From Blastococcus sp. CT_GayMR19 (GTDB lineage: Bacteria > Actinomycetota > Actinomycetes > Mycobacteriales > Geodermatophilaceae), in assembly GCF_004570385.1 (NCBI RefSeq), contig NZ_SPQL01000004.1:248001-312000 (forward strand): a stretch of 64,000 bases of DNA, read 5' to 3'. Numbering within the stretch: the stretch's first letter is position 1; every line of letters begins with the position of its first letter. The translations under genes were made by a program, and so were the position numbers. Below are positions 4,557 to 45,407 of the stretch, piece by piece. The notes under the pieces were generated by a model that was not told the origin of the DNA, made no database searches, and saw nothing but the letters and a program-made list of their open reading frames with translations.

Positions 4557-5810
4557 GTGGACGGGGTGCCGCAGAGGCTGGGCCTCGTGCTCCGCCGGGA
4601 TCCCTTCGCACCGCTGCTGGAGAACAGCCTCGCGGCGCTCTTCCGGCAGCACTCACGGGACGGCGCCGCGACGCACGCCGTCCCCACCGGCGGGGCACCG
4701 CAGCCGCTGACCCGCTACGACGACGGCCGCGAGCGGATCAACCTGGGCAGCAACAACTACCTCGGGCTCGCCGGCGACCCCCGCGTGATCGAGGCTGCCG
4801 TCGCGGCCGTCCGGAAGTACGGCTCCAGCACCTCCGGTAGCCGCGTGCTCAACGGGACGACGCGGCTGCACCTCCAGCTGGAGGACGAGCTGGCCGACCA
4901 CTACGGCGCCGAGGCGGCCGTGCTCACGTCGTCCGGGATCAACGCCAACGTCGCCCTGCTGTCCACGATCGGCGGCCCGGGCGACGTGCTGCTCGTCGAC
5001 GCGCACGCGCACGCCAGCGTGCACGCCGGCGCCGCGGCCAGCCGGGGAACCGTGAGCCGGTTCCGCCACAACGACCTGGACTCCCTCACCTCCCGGCTGC
5101 AACGGCTGGAGGAGCGGGCCGGCGCCGTGGTCGTCGTCGACGGCGTCTACTCCATGACCGGCGAGCTCGCCCCGCTGGCCGACATCGCCGCGCTCTGCGA
5201 CCGGTTCTCGGCCCGGCTCGTGGTCGACGAGGCCCACGGCCTCGGCGTGCTCGGTGCCGAGGGCCGCGGAGCCGCGGAGCAGGCCGGGGTGCTCGAGCGC
5301 GTGGACGCCGTGACGATCGCCTTCAGCAAGTCGCTGGCCAGCGTCGGGGGAGCGGTCATGACCTCGCGGGCCGCCGCCGAAGGCATCCGCGCCGCCGCGC
5401 TGCCGTACGTGTTCAGCGCCGCCAACGACCCCGCGTCGGTCGGCGCGGCGCTCACCTCGCTGCGGATCCTGCGCAGCGAGCCGGAACGCATGGCGCGCAC
5501 CCGCGAGAACGGGGAGCTGCTCCGCCGGTCGCTGGCCGCCGCGGGGGCTGCGCCGCTGCCGGGCCGGGGTGCGGTTCTCGCCGTCCCGACCGGCGAGGAG
5601 CACGTGACGGCGGCCGCCTGGCGGGCCGCCTTCGACGGCGGGGTGTACGTCAACGCCGTGGCCTATCCGGCGGTCCCCCGGGGGCAGGGTGTCCTCCGGC
5701 TGTCGGTCATGGCCACCCACACCGAGGAGCAGCTGCGCACGGCCGCCGGTGTCGTGGCGGCCGCGGTGCGCGCCGCGTTCGAGGACGCCCCCGCCCGAGC
5801 CGTGGCCTGA
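4557..5810 (+). CDS. PLP-dependent alpha-oxoamine synthase (BioF / KBL-like)
   Basis: A 417-residue type I-fold PLP enzyme that would condense an amino acid with an acyl thioester, as 8-amino-7-oxononanoate synthase and 2-amino-3-ketobutyrate CoA ligase do. The visible motifs are NLGSNNYLGLA near residue 62, GSSTSGSRVLNGT, VDEAHGLGVLG near residue 225 (PLP-binding Asp) and AFSKSLASVGG with the Schiff-base lysine near 258. No bio genes lie nearby, so it may make something other than biotin. The start is uncertain: GTG 4557 is used, with GTG 4566 and GTG 4590 as alternatives, and no strong ribosome binding site is seen. The spacing from the exporter is only 26 bp, consistent with co-transcription. 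Confidence 0.8.
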   Translation: MDGVPQRLGLVLRRDPFAPLLENSLAALFRQHSRDGAATHAVPTGGAPQPLTRYDDGRERINLGSNNYLGLAGDPRVIEAAVAAVRKYGSSTSGSRVLNGTTRLHLQLEDELADHYGAEAAVLTSSGINANVALLSTIGGPGDVLLVDAHAHASVHAGAAASRGTVSRFRHNDLDSLTSRLQRLEERAGAVVVVDGVYSMTGELAPLADIAALCDRFSARLVVDEAHGLGVLGAEGRGAAEQAGVLERVDAVTIAFSKSLASVGGAVMTSRAAAEGIRAAALPYVFSAANDPASVGAALTSLRILRSEPERMARTRENGELLRRSLAAAGAAPLPGRGAVLAVPTGEEHVTAAAWRAAFDGGVYVNAVAYPAVPRGQGVLRLSVMATHTEEQLRTAAGVVAAAVRAAFEDAPARAVA

Positions 5811-5822
5811 GCGCTGCCGGGT

Positions 5823-5828
5823 TAGCGT
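5823..5828 (+). promoter_or_regulatory. -10 element, leaderless promoter
   Basis: TAGCGT fits TANNNT and lies exactly 7 nt before ATG 5836, with no Shine-Dalgarno sequence in between. A transcript starting at the A of the ATG is expected. Confidence 0.55.
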
Positions 5829-5835
5829 TCTGGCG

Positions 5836-6138
5836 ATGCCCGACAGCCCGCCCGCGCACGCGCGCCGCGCCCGGGCGCTCATGGGGGTCGTCGCCGCCTC
5901 GGCCCTGGTCTATCCGCTCCTCGTGTGCGCCGTGCAGCTGGGGTTCGCCCAGCTGTTCGTCGTCGACCTGGCCGCGATCACGCTCTGGCTGGGGCTCGCC
6001 GTGCTGTGCAGCGTCGCGGTGGTGGCCGCGGTGCGCTGGGGTGCCGCGCGGCGGGTCCGCAGTCCCTGGCTGCTGCTCGGACTGGCCCCGCCCGCGCTCT
6101 ACGAGCTGTGGCTGGTCTGGCCGCTGCTCCCCGGATGA
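5836..6138 (+). CDS. Small three-helix membrane protein of unknown function
   Basis: A 100-residue protein that I do not recognise beyond ‘hypothetical membrane protein’. After a basic N-terminus ([10 protein letters not shown]) it has three hydrophobic helices, near residues 15-35, 40-65 and 75-95, with an Arg-rich cytoplasmic loop (RWGAARRVR) between the second and third. The TANNNT-7-ATG arrangement argues that it is a real, leaderless gene. Its TGA overlaps an ATG as ATGA, but the downstream gpmA more probably starts 24 nt further on. No enzymatic motif is present. Confidence 0.65.
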
Positions 6139-40136: not shown

Positions 40137-41090
40137 ATGATCACCGCCCCCGCCGGGCCGGTGCTGGAGGCGCGGGTCTACTCGGTGCCGCTGCGCACCC
40201 GTTTCCGCGGCATCGACGTCCGGGACGGCGTGCTCGTCCGCGGGCCGGCCGGTTGGGGTGAGTTCTCCCCGTTCTGGGACTACGGCGTCGCCGAGAGCCG
40301 GCGGTGGTGGGCCGCCGCGCTCGAGGGCGCCGTCGACGGCTGGCCGGCCCCCGTCCGCGACTCCGTACCGGTCAACGTCACCGTGCCGGCGGTCGATCCG
40401 GAACGGGCGCACGCGATCGTCACGGCGTCGGGCTGCCGGACGGCGAAGGTGAAGGTGGCCGAGCCCGGGCAGTCCGCGGCCGACGACCTCGCGCGCGTCG
40501 AGGCCGTCCGCGACGCGCTCGGCCCGTCGGGCGCGATCCGGGTGGACGCCAACGCGGCCTGGGACGTCGACACCGCGGTGGCGCGCATCGCCGAGCTGGA
40601 CCGGGTCGGCCTGGAGTACGTCGAGCAGCCCTGCGCCACGCTGGCCGAGCTGACCGCGCTGCGCCGTCGCATCGAGGTCCGGATCGCCGCCGACGAGGTG
40701 GTGCGGCGCGCGGCGGATCCGTTGAGGGTGGACCTGCGCGAGGCGTGCGACGTCGTCGTCCTCAAGGTGCAGCCGCTCGGGGGCGTGCGGGCGGCGCTGG
40801 AGGTGGCCGCGGCGCACGGGCTGCCGTGCGTCGTCTCGTCGGCACTGGAGAGCTCGGTGGGGATCGCGGCGGGCGTCGCGCTCGCCGCCGCCCTGCCGGA
40901 CCTGCCGTTCGCCTGCGGACTGGCCACGGTCGCCCTGTTCACCGACGACGTCAGCCGAACGCCCCTGCTGCCGGTCGACGGAGAGCTCCCGGTCCGCCGC
41001 CCCGCGCCGGACCGGCTCGACGAGGTCGCCGCGGATGCCGCCACCGCCGCGCGCTGGCGGGCCCGGATGGACGCGGTGCGGGCCGCATGA
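40137..41090 (+). CDS. menC: o-Succinylbenzoate synthase
   Basis: A 317-residue enolase-superfamily enzyme dehydrating SHCHC to o-succinylbenzoate. The N-terminal cap has LRTRFRGIDVRDGVLV. The barrel carries the K-x-K acid/base pair in TAKVKVAE, then metal ligands in VDANAAWDVDTA, YVEQPC and IAADEVVRRA, and the opposite lysine in VVLKVQPLGG. Overlaps menD as ATGA. Its promoter is leaderless and shared back to back with menE. Confidence 0.94.
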   Translation: MITAPAGPVLEARVYSVPLRTRFRGIDVRDGVLVRGPAGWGEFSPFWDYGVAESRRWWAAALEGAVDGWPAPVRDSVPVNVTVPAVDPERAHAIVTASGCRTAKVKVAEPGQSAADDLARVEAVRDALGPSGAIRVDANAAWDVDTAVARIAELDRVGLEYVEQPCATLAELTALRRRIEVRIAADEVVRRAADPLRVDLREACDVVVLKVQPLGGVRAALEVAAAHGLPCVVSSALESSVGIAAGVALAAALPDLPFACGLATVALFTDDVSRTPLLPVDGELPVRRPAPDRLDEVAADAATAARWRARMDAVRAA

Positions 41091-42778
41091 ACCCGTCCAC
41101 CGCCTTCGCCCGGGTGCTCGTCGACGAGCTCCTCCGGGGCGGGGTCACCGACGCCGTCCTCGCACCCGGCTCGCGGTCCGCGCCGGTTGCCCTGGCGCTG
41201 GCCGCCGCCGAGCGGACCGGCCGGCTGCGGCTGCACGTGCGCACCGACGAGCGGACGGCGGCGTTCCTCGCGCTGGGGCTGGCCAAGGCGAGCGGCCGCC
41301 CGGTGCCGGTGCTGACGACGTCGGGCACCGCGGCGGCGCACCTGCACGCGGCCGTGCTGGAGGCCGACGCGAGCGGCGTCCCGCTGCTGGCGCTCACCGC
41401 GGACCGGCCGCCCGAGATGCGGGCCACGGGGGCCAACCAGACCATCGAGCAGCCGGGCCTGTACGGCGGGGCCGTGCGGTGGGCCGCCGACGTCGGCGTG
41501 CCGGAGGCCGGCCGTGAGGCGGCGCAGAACCGCTACTGGCGGTCGATCGTGTCGAAGGCGCTGCTGACCGCCACGGGCGCGCTCGACCGGGATCCAGGCC
41601 CGGTGCACCTGAACCTCGCGCTGCGCGAGCCGCTGATGCCCGACGAGGAGCCGAGCGAGCTCGCCGGCGCCTGGGCCGGGCGGGCGGACGGCGCGCCGTG
41701 GACGAGTGCCCGCCCCATGCCGCCGGCGTCCTCCCGGACGACGGTGCGGCGGCAGCGGACCCTCGTGGTCGCCGGTGACGGATCGCCGTTCCGCGGCCGG
41801 ATCGCCGGGGACGACGCGGGCCGGGCGGGCTGGCCGGTGATCGCCGAGCCGAGCAGCGGCGCGTGGACCGAGGCGAGCCTGCGGGCCGGTGCGCTCCTGC
41901 TCGGGAGCCCCGACTGGCTGGCGCGGCACCGGCCCGACCGGGTCGTCGTCGTTGGCCGGCCGACGCTCTCGCGGCCGGTCTCCGCCCTGCTCGCCGACCC
42001 GGACGTGGAGGTCGAGACCGTGACGGTCGGCCCGCGGTGGCCGGACGCCGGGCGGTCGAGCGCGCAGGTCGGGTTCGGCTTCCCGGACGGGACGGGGGAG
42101 GGCGGCACGGTGGAGCCCGACTGGGCCCGCGCATGGCGGGCGGGCGCTGTGGCGGTGGGCGCGGCCGTCGACGCCGTGCTCGACGCTGCGCCCGGCCTGA
42201 CCGCGGCCCGGCTCGCACGGGACGTCGTCGCCGCGCTGCCCCTCGAATCCCTGCTCGTGCTCGGGTCCTCGACGCCGGTGCGCGACGTCGACCGGCTGGC
42301 GGCGCCGCGCGGGGACCTCACCGTCCTGGCCAACCGGGGGGTCGCCGGCATCGACGGCACGATCTCGACCGCGGTGGGCGCGGCGCTGGTGCACGGTCGG
42401 CCGGCGTTCGCGCTGATGGGCGACCTGACGTTCCTGCACGACCTGACCGGCCTGCTGCTCGGTGAGGGGGAGACGGCACCGGACCTCACGGTGCTCGTCC
42501 CGGACAACGACGGCGGTGGCATCTTCGCCCAGCTCGAACCGGGGGACGACCGGCACGCCAGGGACTACCGGCGCGTGTTCGGGACGCCGCACGGCCGGGA
42601 CCTGGTCGCCGTCGCCCGCGCGCTGGGCTGGGCAGCGACCGAGGTGACGGCACCGGACGGGCTCCCGGCAGCGCTCGGGCTCGGCGGACCGCGCGTCGTC
42701 GTCGTCCGCACCGATCAACGGGCCGAGGCGGACCTCGCCCGGCAGCTACGGCGGGCCGCGGAGCGTGCCCTGGCCTGA
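41087..42778 (+). CDS. menD: SEPHCHC synthase (2-succinyl-5-enolpyruvyl-6-hydroxy-3-cyclohexene-1-carboxylate synthase)
   Basis: A thiamine diphosphate enzyme combining isochorismate with 2-oxoglutarate, the first committed step of menaquinone synthesis. It is 563 residues. The Pyr domain has LAPGSRSAPVALALA and HVRTDERTAAFLALG, with TTSGTAAAHLHAAVLEA. The ThDP/Mg site is ALMGDLTFLHD followed by VPDNDGGGIFAQLE near residue 465-480. ATG 41087 overlaps the menC stop. Confidence 0.95.
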   Translation: MNPSTAFARVLVDELLRGGVTDAVLAPGSRSAPVALALAAAERTGRLRLHVRTDERTAAFLALGLAKASGRPVPVLTTSGTAAAHLHAAVLEADASGVPLLALTADRPPEMRATGANQTIEQPGLYGGAVRWAADVGVPEAGREAAQNRYWRSIVSKALLTATGALDRDPGPVHLNLALREPLMPDEEPSELAGAWAGRADGAPWTSARPMPPASSRTTVRRQRTLVVAGDGSPFRGRIAGDDAGRAGWPVIAEPSSGAWTEASLRAGALLLGSPDWLARHRPDRVVVVGRPTLSRPVSALLADPDVEVETVTVGPRWPDAGRSSAQVGFGFPDGTGEGGTVEPDWARAWRAGAVAVGAAVDAVLDAAPGLTAARLARDVVAALPLESLLVLGSSTPVRDVDRLAAPRGDLTVLANRGVAGIDGTISTAVGAALVHGRPAFALMGDLTFLHDLTGLLLGEGETAPDLTVLVPDNDGGGIFAQLEPGDDRHARDYRRVFGTPHGRDLVAVARALGWAATEVTAPDGLPAALGLGGPRVVVVRTDQRAEADLARQLRRAAERALA

Positions 42779-42790
42779 CCCGCCGTCTCC

Positions 42791-42898
42791 TTGCGCCTTT
42801 CTTGCGGTTGCCTGGCGGGGGGCCTGCGGAACGGCCCGCATCGTCGTCCTTGTCACCGGGACCCACCCGGTCCCGGCAAGTCAAGGAGAGACGACGAC
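42791..42898 (+). promoter_or_regulatory. Promoter/leader of the first exported protein (leader copy 1)
   Basis: This stretch aligns almost base for base with 43660-43762: TTGCGC, TTGCGGTT, GCCTGCGGA, GCATCGTCGT, CTTGTCACCGG and AGTCAAGGAG recur in the same order. It also contains an 8-bp stem CCGGGACC / GGTCCCGG (42857-42877). AAGGAG is the ribosome binding site. TTGCGC or TTGCGG may be a -35. The conservation points to a common regulator. Confidence 0.65.
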
Positions 42899-43558
42899 AT
42901 GAGCAACAGCATCACTTCCTTCCGCCGCCTCGCGGTGACGATCGCACTGTCCGGCGTCACCGCGATCGGCGCAGTGGCCCTCGCCCCCGGTGCGATGGCC
43001 GACGACACCGCCATCGTCGAGTCCGCTCCCGTGGCGGAGCCCGCTCCCGCGGTGGAGTCCGCTCCCGTGGTCGAGTCCGTGCCTCTGGTCGAGTCGTCCC
43101 CCGCGATCCCGTCCGCTCCCGTGGTGGAGTCGGTGCCCGTGGTCCCGTCCGCGCCCATGGTGGAGTCGGCCCCGGTGGCCCCGTCCGCTCCGGCGGCCGA
43201 GCCGGCCCCGGTCGTCGTCACGCCCCCGCCGGTCGGCGTCGACCAGAACGGCAAGGAGTACAAGCCGCCGAAGTTCTGCACGGTGAAGGACCTGGAGGAG
43301 ATCGCGAAGAAGGTCGCCAAGGCGACCAAGGAGGCGGCCGGCCTGACCAAGCTGGCCAACGCCGCCCGTCAGGCCGCGACCCTGCTGCGTGCCCAGGCCC
43401 CCAAGCTCAAGGGCTTCTCGGCCTACCTGGCGCTCGAGGTGGCCCGCGGGCTGGACTCCTCCGCGGCCAAGCTCCTCGACCAGGGCCAGAAGCTGATCGA
43501 CAAGGCCTCCGAGAAGAAGTGCATGGACGCCCCGGCGGTCGAGGGCGGTCGATTCTGA
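42899..43558 (+). CDS. Exported protein with hexapeptide Pro/Val/Glu repeat stalk and two cysteines
   Basis: A 219-residue secreted protein of unknown function. The signal peptide (RR at 9-10, hydrophobic 12-30) is probably cut after AMA34. Residues 40-105 are a hexad repeat of the type V-E-S-A-P-V (Glu or Pro at 41 + 6n), predicted as an extended stalk. Residues 127-208 are a Lys/Ala-rich helical domain bracketed by the only cysteines, C127 (PKFCTVKD) and C208 (KKCMDAP). AAGGAG lies 9 nt before the ATG. Its leader and signal peptide resemble those of the next gene. Confidence 0.82.
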   Translation: MSNSITSFRRLAVTIALSGVTAIGAVALAPGAMADDTAIVESAPVAEPAPAVESAPVVESVPLVESSPAIPSAPVVESVPVVPSAPMVESAPVAPSAPAAEPAPVVVTPPPVGVDQNGKEYKPPKFCTVKDLEEIAKKVAKATKEAAGLTKLANAARQAATLLRAQAPKLKGFSAYLALEVARGLDSSAAKLLDQGQKLIDKASEKKCMDAPAVEGGRF

Positions 43559-43585
43559 CCCCCTCCCTGCCTGTGACCGGATGAC

Positions 43586-43615
43586 CGGCGGCGCCTCCGG
43601 ACGGGGGCGCCGCCG
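43586..43615 (+). terminator. Hairpin terminator after the first exported protein
   Basis: CGGCGGCGCC (43586-43595) pairs perfectly with GGCGCCGCCG (43606-43615), with a 10-nt loop. It separates the two exported-protein genes so each has its own transcript. Confidence 0.6.
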
Positions 43616-43659
43616 CCGTCCGGACCACCCCCGACAGGACGTCGTGCCCGGCCTGTTTC

Positions 43660-43762
43660 TTGCGCTTATCCTGCGGTTTCCTCGAGGGAGCCCTGCGGAT
43701 CGCCCGGCATCGTCGTTCTTGTCACCGGAACCAACCAGGAACCGGCCAGTCAAGGAGACGAC
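43660..43762 (+). promoter_or_regulatory. Promoter/leader of the second exported protein (leader copy 2)
   Basis: Near-duplicate of 42791-42898, with the main difference that the 8-bp stem of copy 1 is not preserved (GGAACC direct repeats instead). AAGGAG lies 7 nt before ATG 43763. Confidence 0.65.
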
Positions 43763-44035
43763 ATGTACACCGAGATGGCTCTCACCGCCCGCCGCTTCGC
43801 CCTGACCTTCGCCGTGGCCGGCATCGCCGCGCTCGGCTCCGTCGCCCTCGCCCCCGCCGCCTCCGCGGCGCAGGACGTTCCGGGTGCGACCGTCGAGCAC
43901 ACGTCCCACGGCAACGGCCCGGACGCCTTCGTGCAGATGGAGCACCGCAAGCTGCCGGTCTTCTTCTGCGACGCGGACAAGCCGAAGCGGCACCACAAGG
44001 ACTGCATCGACCTGACCGCCCCCACCCGCTTCTGA
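43763..44035 (+). CDS. Small exported two-cysteine protein
   Basis: A 90-residue secreted peptide. The signal peptide (RR at 10-11, VAGIAALGSVALAPAASA) is probably cut after residue 35, leaving about 55 residues. The mature part has only two cysteines, C69 and C81 (LPVFFCDADKP and HHKDCIDLTAP), which could form a disulfide. Both the signal sequence and the C-x(n)-K-(K/D)-C-(M/I)-D ending echo the preceding exported protein, so the two look like diverged duplicates. The histidine-rich loop (KRHHK) could bind metal. No family name is known to me. Confidence 0.78.
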   Translation: MYTEMALTARRFALTFAVAGIAALGSVALAPAASAAQDVPGATVEHTSHGNGPDAFVQMEHRKLPVFFCDADKPKRHHKDCIDLTAPTRF

Positions 44036-44074
44036 GGCGGTCCGTCCTCCCAGCGCACACCGGCTCCGACCCAC

Positions 44075-44109
44075 CGGCGGCGCTCCCGGATCCCGGGAGC
44101 GCCGCCGGG
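44075..44109. terminator. Bidirectional terminator, perfect 16-bp stem
   Basis: CCGGCGGCGCTCCCGG (44075-44090) is exactly complementary to 44094-44109, with loop ATC. It lies between the convergent second exported-protein gene and menF. Confidence 0.75.
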
Positions 44110-44135
44110 GTGCGTCCCGGGCCCGGTGCCGGCGG

Positions 44136-45407
44136 TCAGCCCTCGAGTGCGGCCTGGAACGCGGCGAACTTGGCCTGCGTCTCGGCCAGCTCGGCCGCGG
44201 GGTCGGAACCCGCGACGATGCCGCAGCCGGCGAACAGCCGGGCACCGTCGTCCCCGGTGAGCTCGGCGCAGCGCAACGCGAGCCCGAACTCGCCGTCACC
44301 GCGGGCGTCCAGCCAGCCCACCGGCCCCGCATAGCGACCGCGGTCCATCCCCTCCAGCTCGCCGATCAGCGCGGCGGCGTCCGCCGTCGGCGTGCCGCAC
44401 ACGGCCGCGGTCGGGTGAACGGCCCCCACCAGCTCCAGCAGACCGGCCCGGCCGCGGGATCCGTGCCGCTGCTGCGTCCCGGTGACGTCACTGGCCAGGT
44501 GCCGCACGTTGGCCAGGGTGAGCAGTTCGGGCCCCTCGGGCGCCTCGAGCGTCGCGCAGTAGGGCTCCAGCGCCCGCACCAGCGAGTCGACGGCGAGGGC
44601 GTGCTCCACCCGGTCCTTGGCGGAGTCCATCAGCGCCGCGGCCAGCCGCTCGTCGGCGTCACCGGCGCCACGGGGCGCGGTGCCTGCCAGCACCCGAGCC
44701 GACAGCTGCCGCCCGCTCCGGCGCAGGAGCAGCTCGGGGGTCGCACCGAGGAGGCCGTCGACGGCGAAGGTCCAGCAGTCGGGGAAGCGGTCGGCCAGCC
44801 GGCGCAGCAGCCTGCGCGGGTCCAGGGGGCCGTCCGCGGAGACGAGCAGGTCTCGGGCCAGGACCACCTTGGCCAGGTCGCCCGCATCGATCCGGTCCAC
44901 GGCCGTCGCGACCGCCGCGCTCCACGTGGCCGGGTCCAGGGCTCCGTCGGCGTACCGCAGGCGGGGCGCCGGCCCGTCGGCCGGGCGCGGCACGGGCGGG
45001 AGCAGGGCATCGAGGGGGCCGTCGGCGCCGGCCGTCGTCACCCATCCGACGCCGTCCCTCCGGCCGACGACGGTCTCGGGGACGACGAACACCGACGTCC
45101 CCGCTGCCGGGTCGAAGGCGATGCTGGCGAACAGGACCGGGCCGGTGCCGGGAAGGTCGACCGCGTCGTCCACCTCGGCGTCGGCCGTCCAGTCCGACCA
45201 CCAGGCGGCCGCCTCGGCGAGCGCGTCCGGGCCGGACACCTCCAGCCGCGCGGCCTCGCCCCAGCCGACCAGTCCCTCGCCGTGGCGGACCCAGGACAGG
45301 GCACCCTCGGCCGGCGCGCGGTCGATGAGCGGTGCGTCGTCCTCGTACCGGACCGTCGTGACCGCGCGCAGGGCTGCCTCGGTAGAGGTCAGGGCGGCCG
45401 CTGTCAC
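44136..45407 (-). CDS. menF: Isochorismate synthase
   Basis: A 423-residue chorismate-utilising enzyme converting chorismate to isochorismate for MenD. The C-terminal catalytic half has [18 protein letters not shown], then [20 protein letters not shown] (active site), [18 protein letters not shown] and the closing [21 protein letters not shown]. An EntC/DhbC-type siderophore role is possible in principle, but the menaquinone context favours MenF. GTG 45407 has TACGCT 6 nt upstream. Divergent from menG. Confidence 0.9.

Follow-up and report, generated by a model that had tools for sequence, protein, structure and literature searches.

We propose that two adjacent genes of Blastococcus sp. CT_GayMR19, designated gA and gB, are outliers, specific to Blastococcus, within a regulon of the Geodermatophilaceae and encode exported, disulfide-closed matrix or surface proteins that would be controlled together with TasA-like fibres; we assign this reading a probability of roughly 0.55. 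The sole tie between the two-cysteine and the TasA-like proteins is the promoter, and the sequence that they share there suggests co-regulation of gA and gB with the TasA-like genes. Both genes lie in a 64,000-nt stretch of DNA (the window, meaning the whole stretch analysed) of a 4.57-Mb genome (label G000), whose genus NCBI assigns to the Geodermatophilaceae. The initial annotation had taken them for an expandable family of co-regulated surface or secreted factors without a name. This stands in part: further leader copies exist and no family cut-off is passed, the proposed K-x-C-x-D mark falls, and 'expandable' applies partly. It did not see that most copies of the promoter module precede other genes, with TasA/camelysin-like genes foremost.

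Among the open reading frames of the window, gA and gB are the two genes between the frames that the initial annotation named menD and menF, and each has its own upstream block, Shine-Dalgarno sequence and downstream inverted repeat. All features described here are on the plus strand except menF. The slot is bordered upstream by an open frame of 40304..42778 that ends as menD and downstream by the menF ORF (44136..45407, minus strand). The gA promoter module (42791..42844), matching the pattern given below with 0 mismatches, consists of four 11-bp repeats beginning at 42791, 42802, 42813 and 42824 and a -10-like CATCGT at 42839-42844, as placed by the pattern and the consensus of 66 sites. It is followed by a leader hairpin, CCGGGACC...GGTCCCGG (42856..42876, from pairing across 10 leaders), by a Shine-Dalgarno AAGGAG (42883..42888, in invariant columns of leader alignment A5) and by the open reading frame of a 219-aa two-cysteine protein (42899..43558). 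The start of gA is the ATG at 42899 and not the TTG at 42791 given in the ORF list. Behind the signal peptide (aa 1-34, 42899-43000, judged by eye) the repeat search located a Pro/Val/Glu/Ser stalk with 18-bp repeats in its DNA (window 42980-43231); the C-terminal domain, from aa 111 onward (from 43229), carries C127 (43277-43279) and C208 (43520-43522), and the translation ends in GGRF. A GC-rich inverted repeat without a T run, possibly a terminator, lies 3′ of gA at 43586-43615.

The gB module, again four 11-bp repeats with a -10-like hexamer and 0 mismatches to the pattern, occupies 43660..43713, with CATCGT at 43708-43713. Its leader hairpin (43725..43745) has two inner pairs disrupted, and the Shine-Dalgarno AAGGAG at 43752..43757 falls in the same invariant columns of alignment A5. 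The open reading frame (43763..44035) encodes a 90-aa two-cysteine protein with a signal peptide judged by eye to cover aa 1-35, cysteines C69 (43967-43969) and C81 (44003-44005) and a translated C-terminus TRF; a perfect 16-bp inverted repeat at 44074-44108 is a possible terminator. Scanning of the gA/gB region detected no T-tailed terminator and no sigma-70 promoter by consensus. GC content at the three codon positions is 0.70/0.52/0.93 for gA, 0.67/0.51/0.96 for gB and 0.81/0.57/0.93 for menF. Every sequence element quoted in the initial annotation was found in the window, and its description of the pair was borne out: the near-identical upstream blocks share 79% identity over 114 nt (82% over the aligned 100 nt), the matching signal peptides are encoded by DNA 79% identical over 68 nt, C127/C208 are the only cysteines of gA and C69/C81 the only ones of gB, and the second cysteine stands in KKCMD in gA and KDCID in gB. 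The four-fold, 11-bp repeat nature of the upstream block, the shared Arg-Phe ends and the GC-rich inverted repeats 3′ of both genes were absent from it.

Comparison of the relatives' leaders defined the module as TTGCGNNNNNC-YTGCGGNNNNC-NNGNNGNNNNC-YTGCGG in 11-bp steps, then 9 bp and a CANNGT-like hexamer, which is ~50 nt from the ATG, the short leader included. Counting the repeat as a heptamer shortens the gap between the final CTGCGG and the hexamer to 8 bp; a recognisable -35 element is absent. Over 66 distinct sites there is almost no variation in repeats 1, 2 and 4 or in the hexamer's A, G and T, and repeat 3 is weaker; part of this constancy is by construction, since the sites were chosen with the pattern at ≤3 mismatches. 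The 54-nt spaced pattern has 2 matches in the window at 0 mismatches, and 0/100 shuffles match at ≤3; the fit of the gA and gB sites is by construction because the pattern was built partly from them, and the independent evidence for the module is therefore the scan of other genomes. From four head-to-tail 11-bp sites joined to a CANNGT-type -10-like hexamer without a -35, we infer an activator-dependent promoter. The module bears a likeness to OmpR/PhoB-type promoters (PhoB), and it resembles SARP/AfsR promoters in having 11-bp direct repeats, a short gap to a weak CANNGT-type -10 and no recognisable -35. According to passages of PMC10936776, the direct repeats of SARP promoters are spaced by 11 or 22 bp and 8 bp separate the 3′ one from the -10, AfsR is a SARP activator, and the afsS -10 is CACTGT. 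With its 11-bp steps and 8-9 bp to the putative -10, the module agrees with the SARP spacing rule at the level of sequence; unlike the afs box, which has two repeats, it has four, in a rigid 54-nt unit.

The further leader copies for which the initial annotation had proposed a search do exist, with 5 sites in the source genome at ≤3 mismatches and copies in 74 of 112 Geodermatophilaceae genomes at ≤2 mismatches; the reversed-pattern control gave 0 in the family scan. The pattern was found in 26/61 relatives at ≤3 mismatches, against 1 match overall for the reversed control. A draw of 397 genomes of the order yielded 50 positives at ≤2 mismatches (reversed control 0), and when the rows were counted by hand all 50 fell among the 75 Geodermatophilaceae, leaving 0/322 outside the family. 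BLAST with the leader only undercounts the module, returning 2 copies in the source genome and hits in 11/61 relatives. The 3-mismatch match in G052, a simple tandem repeat, was judged to be due to chance. The source genome also holds a zero-mismatch site at C26:151582 (L077:2083) with a second TasA-like gene, ~18 kb from the cluster site described below.

We read the genes behind 66 distinct sites in the fetched loci, a subset of the 89 matches from the 26 relatives and the scan of the source genome, taking the first ATG and preferring, where present, one with a Shine-Dalgarno-like stretch. The ORF start lies 98-115 nt from repeat 1 at 62 of these sites. About 31 sites precede TasA/camelysin-like proteins of ~200 aa (28 by regular expression and 3, L056, L068 and L085, by eye). 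Two-cysteine genes follow 10 sites, one being truncated at a contig end and one (L005) recognised as gB-type by reading, and a different two-cysteine ORF follows 1 site (L100). Small proteins with a DLHDADLD-like motif follow 13 sites, 63-65 aa proteins with a TGARL motif follow 4, and single sites precede another small protein of 62 aa (L041), a small secreted companion (L086:4818), a receiver-Hpt-like protein (L064) and a SipW-like peptidase (L112); this last resembles the SipW-like protein of the source genome, and Pfam gives it no peptidase match. No convincing downstream gene was seen at 3/66 sites (L067, L071, L087).

The commonest targets thus resemble the TasA/camelysin family (PF12389, Peptidase_M73), which in Bacillus is accompanied by SipW. 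The TasA-like protein L053 passes PF12389 (35.7 bits, cut-off 22.5) and scores far under the TasA equivalog model NF046066 (15.2, cut-off 450), and L068 matches no Pfam family at E ≤0.1, so the class is held together mainly by a common N-terminal pattern and length. A peptidase adjoining one TasA-like target scores 62.6 with TIGR02228, the model for archaeal-type signal peptidase I, and so passes its cut-off of 51.85; it scores 55.4 with the SipW model, whose cut-off is 190.

Several smaller observations concern these loci. The DLHDADLD-motif family (L078:3072-3362 and 12 further sites) comprises proteins of 59-96 aa, probably cytosolic, and its motif resembles by eye REIDDLHEQDIDADLD in the receiver-Hpt protein of the cluster (L076:4776-5453). 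The TGARL...LAGLGAFG proteins of 63-65 aa (L081, L091, L104, L109) have N-termini like those of truncated TasA-like proteins; L104, the one tested, has no Pfam match. Along with the SipW-like gene, the TasA cluster holds genes for small two-cysteine proteins whose N-termini look signal-like (L076:4354-4782 and 5498-5944); these have no Pfam match either. The clusters of L138 (G033 C7) and L086 (G016 C48) each contain two TasA-like genes, and near each gene there is a four-repeat site of its own.

In the source genome, the TasA-like gene behind the site at C26:133959 belongs to a cluster. A PAS histidine kinase, this TasA-like protein, a SipW-like protein, a small protein and a receiver-Hpt protein are followed there by a second small protein, another receiver-Hpt-like frame and, in convergent orientation, an OmpR-type response regulator. 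This order recurs with variations in several other genera among the loci read; in G029 the cluster site precedes a receiver-Hpt-like gene. The cluster regulator, at L076:6636-7361, passes PF00072 with 97.8 bits (cut-off 30.2) and PF00486 with 87.8 bits (cut-off 26.2); Pfam lists Response_reg and Trans_reg_C only, and no BTAD domain. It was detected in 29/61 relatives (67-92% identity, >280 bits) and in 25 of the 26 that bear sites, and in 23 of the 25 genomes with both it is convergent with a site and ≤4.1 kb from it; G005 and G015, assembled in 200 and 440 contigs, have it on a different contig from the site. The association of regulator and site has a Fisher p of 6e-12 over the 61 relatives, with related genomes counted as independent. 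Four relatives have the regulator and no site at threshold: G019 and G036 show no TasA-like or SipW-like match in the stretch read near the regulator, and in G028 and G035 a TasA-like gene is present with upstream repeats that look degenerate by eye. The region that corresponds to the recognition helix of the family, VEAHMSNLRRKL, is identical in 14 aligned regulators, the copy of the source genome included and G028 left out; it does not discriminate, since it is identical also in genomes without sites.

We infer that this OmpR-type response regulator is the likely activator of the four-repeat promoters. By analogy with the SARP rule of 11-bp repeats near a -10, the geometry of the module would fit its binding, although the proposed activator differs from SARPs in being a response regulator without BTAD. 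The same regulon could be served by another activator, either a SARP with a BTAD domain or another OmpR-type regulator, with the cluster regulator linked for other reasons. The rule of 11-bp repeats with the 3′ one 8 bp from the -10, as stated in part of PMC10936776, speaks for a SARP, and the source genome holds 6 BTAD and 18 Trans_reg_C matches (17 besides the candidate), whose products could also bind such repeats. However, no BTAD match lies on contig C26, which carries the TasA cluster, or on C34, which carries gA and gB, and the close company of cluster regulator and sites described above, in a comparison that assessed the cluster regulator alone, argues against this alternative, which we consider unlikely.

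The two-cysteine proteins themselves form a family confined to Blastococcus within the 112 Geodermatophilaceae genomes, where 7 of the 16 from Blastococcus carry 10 such genes (9 complete). In that scan a weak match in G073 (E 4.5e-5, profile positions 7-54) was left uncounted, as it covers the signal-peptide part. A scan of a genome-contig collection gave three loci, all in Blastococcus, and a protein search with gB at E ≤1 returned mostly signal-peptide noise. Each of the 9 complete proteins, the window pair included, contains two cysteines and no more, and its last two residues are Arg-Phe (8) or Arg-Trp (1). In the A-type (gA and 5 others) the stalk varies in length; the type has a CT-x-x-DL start and a GGRF-like end, with 79-81 residues between the cysteines in 6/6 complete proteins and 14 of 110 columns invariant across five gA-type domains. 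The B-type (gB and proteins of G005 and G002) is marked by PVFFC and a PT-x-RF-like end; 11, 11 and 98 residues, respectively, lie between its cysteines, and the insert of the G002 protein is rich in Ala, Lys and Glu. The K-x-C-x-D signature proposed as the family mark does not extend to the relatives, KxC occurring in 5/9 and CxD in 2/9 complete proteins (gA and gB). The idea of an expandable family holds for the B-type spacing and for stalk length and fails for the fixed spacing of the A-type. The stalk DNA of gA contains 11 overlapping 72-nt copies from an array of the 18-bp unit, and since it is coded by such repeats, slippage could alter its length. In the stalk region of the G010 homologue ten Asp follow one another.

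In support of a family without a name, neither mature part of gA or gB passes a Pfam or NCBIfam cut-off, and two relatives pass none either. At E ≤10, neither PF12389 nor a chaplin-type profile (Pfam, NCBIfam) is listed for gA or gB. By eye, neither protein has a SipW-type signal peptide, a wall anchor or a lipobox; the cleavage site is of the AxA type. No sipW gene stands beside them, the neighbours being the menD and menF frames. Both are probably secreted. Alignment A1 of the two-cysteine proteins contains an invariant RR. Tat export was considered and rejected: the residues after RR, VGA in G001 and LGA in G002, do not fit the Tat signal pattern, and because of this misfit Sec is preferred. 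Six sequences were run with AlphaFold. For gA, helices 129-169 and 173-203 were modelled mostly with pLDDT >90 and the stalk with low confidence; gB gave no confident fold. As the modelled hairpin has a cysteine on either side of its open end, a disulfide staple in gA is likely. The best neighbours in a structure search were generic helical hairpins; secreted proteins of this kind include FadA (chain 3etw).

Results for the slot between menD and menF differ among strains. We found menF in 15 of 16 Blastococcus genomes, and 8/15 (G000, G001, G002, G005, G006, G008, G009, G010) have a site and a two-cysteine ORF between the two genes. In G003, G011, G012, G013 and G014 the gap is 47-484 bp and contains no four-repeat site at ≤5 mismatches; in G004 and G007 the contig ends. 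The ORF of G006 and G009 encodes a different protein, which ends in IFS and whose two cysteines are separated by 14 and 16 residues; the product thus changes from strain to strain, and the slot and its control, where they occur, are retained. The G006 slot (L154) has an additional ORF that resembles by eye the small companion of the TasA cluster.

The two-cysteine proteins might alternatively be secreted factors of antagonism or communication, bacteriocin-like, with a diversifying mature part, and not parts of a matrix. Conserved promoter, leader and signal set against divergent mature parts in one slot would agree with this, as would the patchy presence of the genes, found in 7/16 Blastococcus genomes with a different two-cysteine ORF in 2 more. 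Yet our ORF rule finds no immunity or maturation candidate in the slot, save the companion-like ORF of G006, and a structural role is suggested by the repeats of the stalk and the Ala/Lys-rich hairpin; we regard this alternative as improbable. Equally improbable is that gA and gB are housekeeping proteins of the cell envelope, wall spacers or linkers under a general strong promoter with an incidental TasA link: the P/V/E/S stalk may resemble wall-spanning spacers and the genes adjoin menaquinone genes, but a promoter with 5 sites in 4.57 Mb is not general, nearly half of the sites read (~31/66) precede TasA-like proteins, and in 5/15 menF genomes the gap is short and no site lies in it.

Regulation through the leader was also considered. 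The hairpin has 90% of its cells paired over 10 two-cysteine leaders, in which no compensatory change in the helix was seen; as it is conserved but lacks covariation, leader regulation of gA and gB is not supported. A stem between the 5′ leader end and the Shine-Dalgarno was rejected, no pair being changed on both sides in the ten leaders, and an alternative outer stem has one two-sided change, equalled by 128/500 shuffles. In an arm-swapping test, a few rows of which had a wrongly placed Shine-Dalgarno window, the observed fit was reached in 1549 of 5000 permutations for two-cysteine leaders, 2592 for DLHD, 98 for TasA and 11 for the pooled set. Rfam gave nine matches at E ≤10 on 42700-44150 and none at gathering score, and with no covariation besides, an RNA switch for gA and gB was rejected. 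In TasA-class leaders (L045, L050, L059 and others) pairing is possible between TCTCCCTGT, at the predicted 5′ end of the mRNA, and ACAGGGAGA in the Shine-Dalgarno region.

Returning to gA and gB as outlying members of a TasA-like regulon, we propose the following course of events. The OmpR-type regulator encoded beside the TasA-like and SipW-like genes would receive its input from the PAS histidine kinase and the receiver-Hpt proteins encoded nearby. Once phosphorylated, it would occupy the four sites of an activator-dependent promoter and, substituting for a -35 element, touch RNA polymerase, switching on TasA/camelysin-like proteins, the SipW-like peptidase, small companions and two-cysteine proteins together. 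The products of gA and gB would be exported and cleaved after AxA by ordinary signal peptidase, and a bond is predicted between their two cysteines; in gA it would act as a staple across the open end of the helical hairpin, which a flexible Pro-rich stalk carries. Both may then join the TasA-like fibres as accessory components of an extracellular matrix or cell surface, which is the weakest step. The menD-menF gap would act as a cassette slot in which promoter, leader and export signal are kept and the mature part varies with the strain. A more far-reaching version, which we consider rather doubtful, is a modular secreted system with a fixed promoter, leader and export cassette and exchanged mature parts (an A-type stapled hairpin of fixed size with variable stalk, a B-type cysteine loop of 11 or 98 residues), a C-terminal Arg-Phe/Trp recognition motif, a dedicated phosphorelay and a new four-site promoter, switched together with the TasA-like fibres.

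Geodermatophilaceae live on stone, desert soil and monuments, and Blastococcus in soil and on stone; TasA is a biofilm-fibre protein. In contrast to the commonest targets, gA and gB lack TasA similarity and are located elsewhere in the genome. TasA, SipW, OmpR-type regulators and 11-bp-repeat promoters are already known kinds. In the open-access literature we found no description of a four-repeat Geodermatophilaceae regulon, of the two-cysteine family or of the control of a protein matrix in Geodermatophilaceae, a silence that is weak evidence of absence since only open-access publications were covered; TasA does not occur in the main text of a comparative paper on the family, as far as that part of the source extends (PMC9686282). 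The 54-nt signature, found in none of the 322 genomes outside the family, provides a ready list of candidate co-controlled genes. It points to a candidate kinase-regulator pair and ties in an otherwise unclassified, putatively secreted protein family, and the shared promoter sequence thus points to what may be an undescribed set of co-controlled surface proteins in the Geodermatophilaceae.
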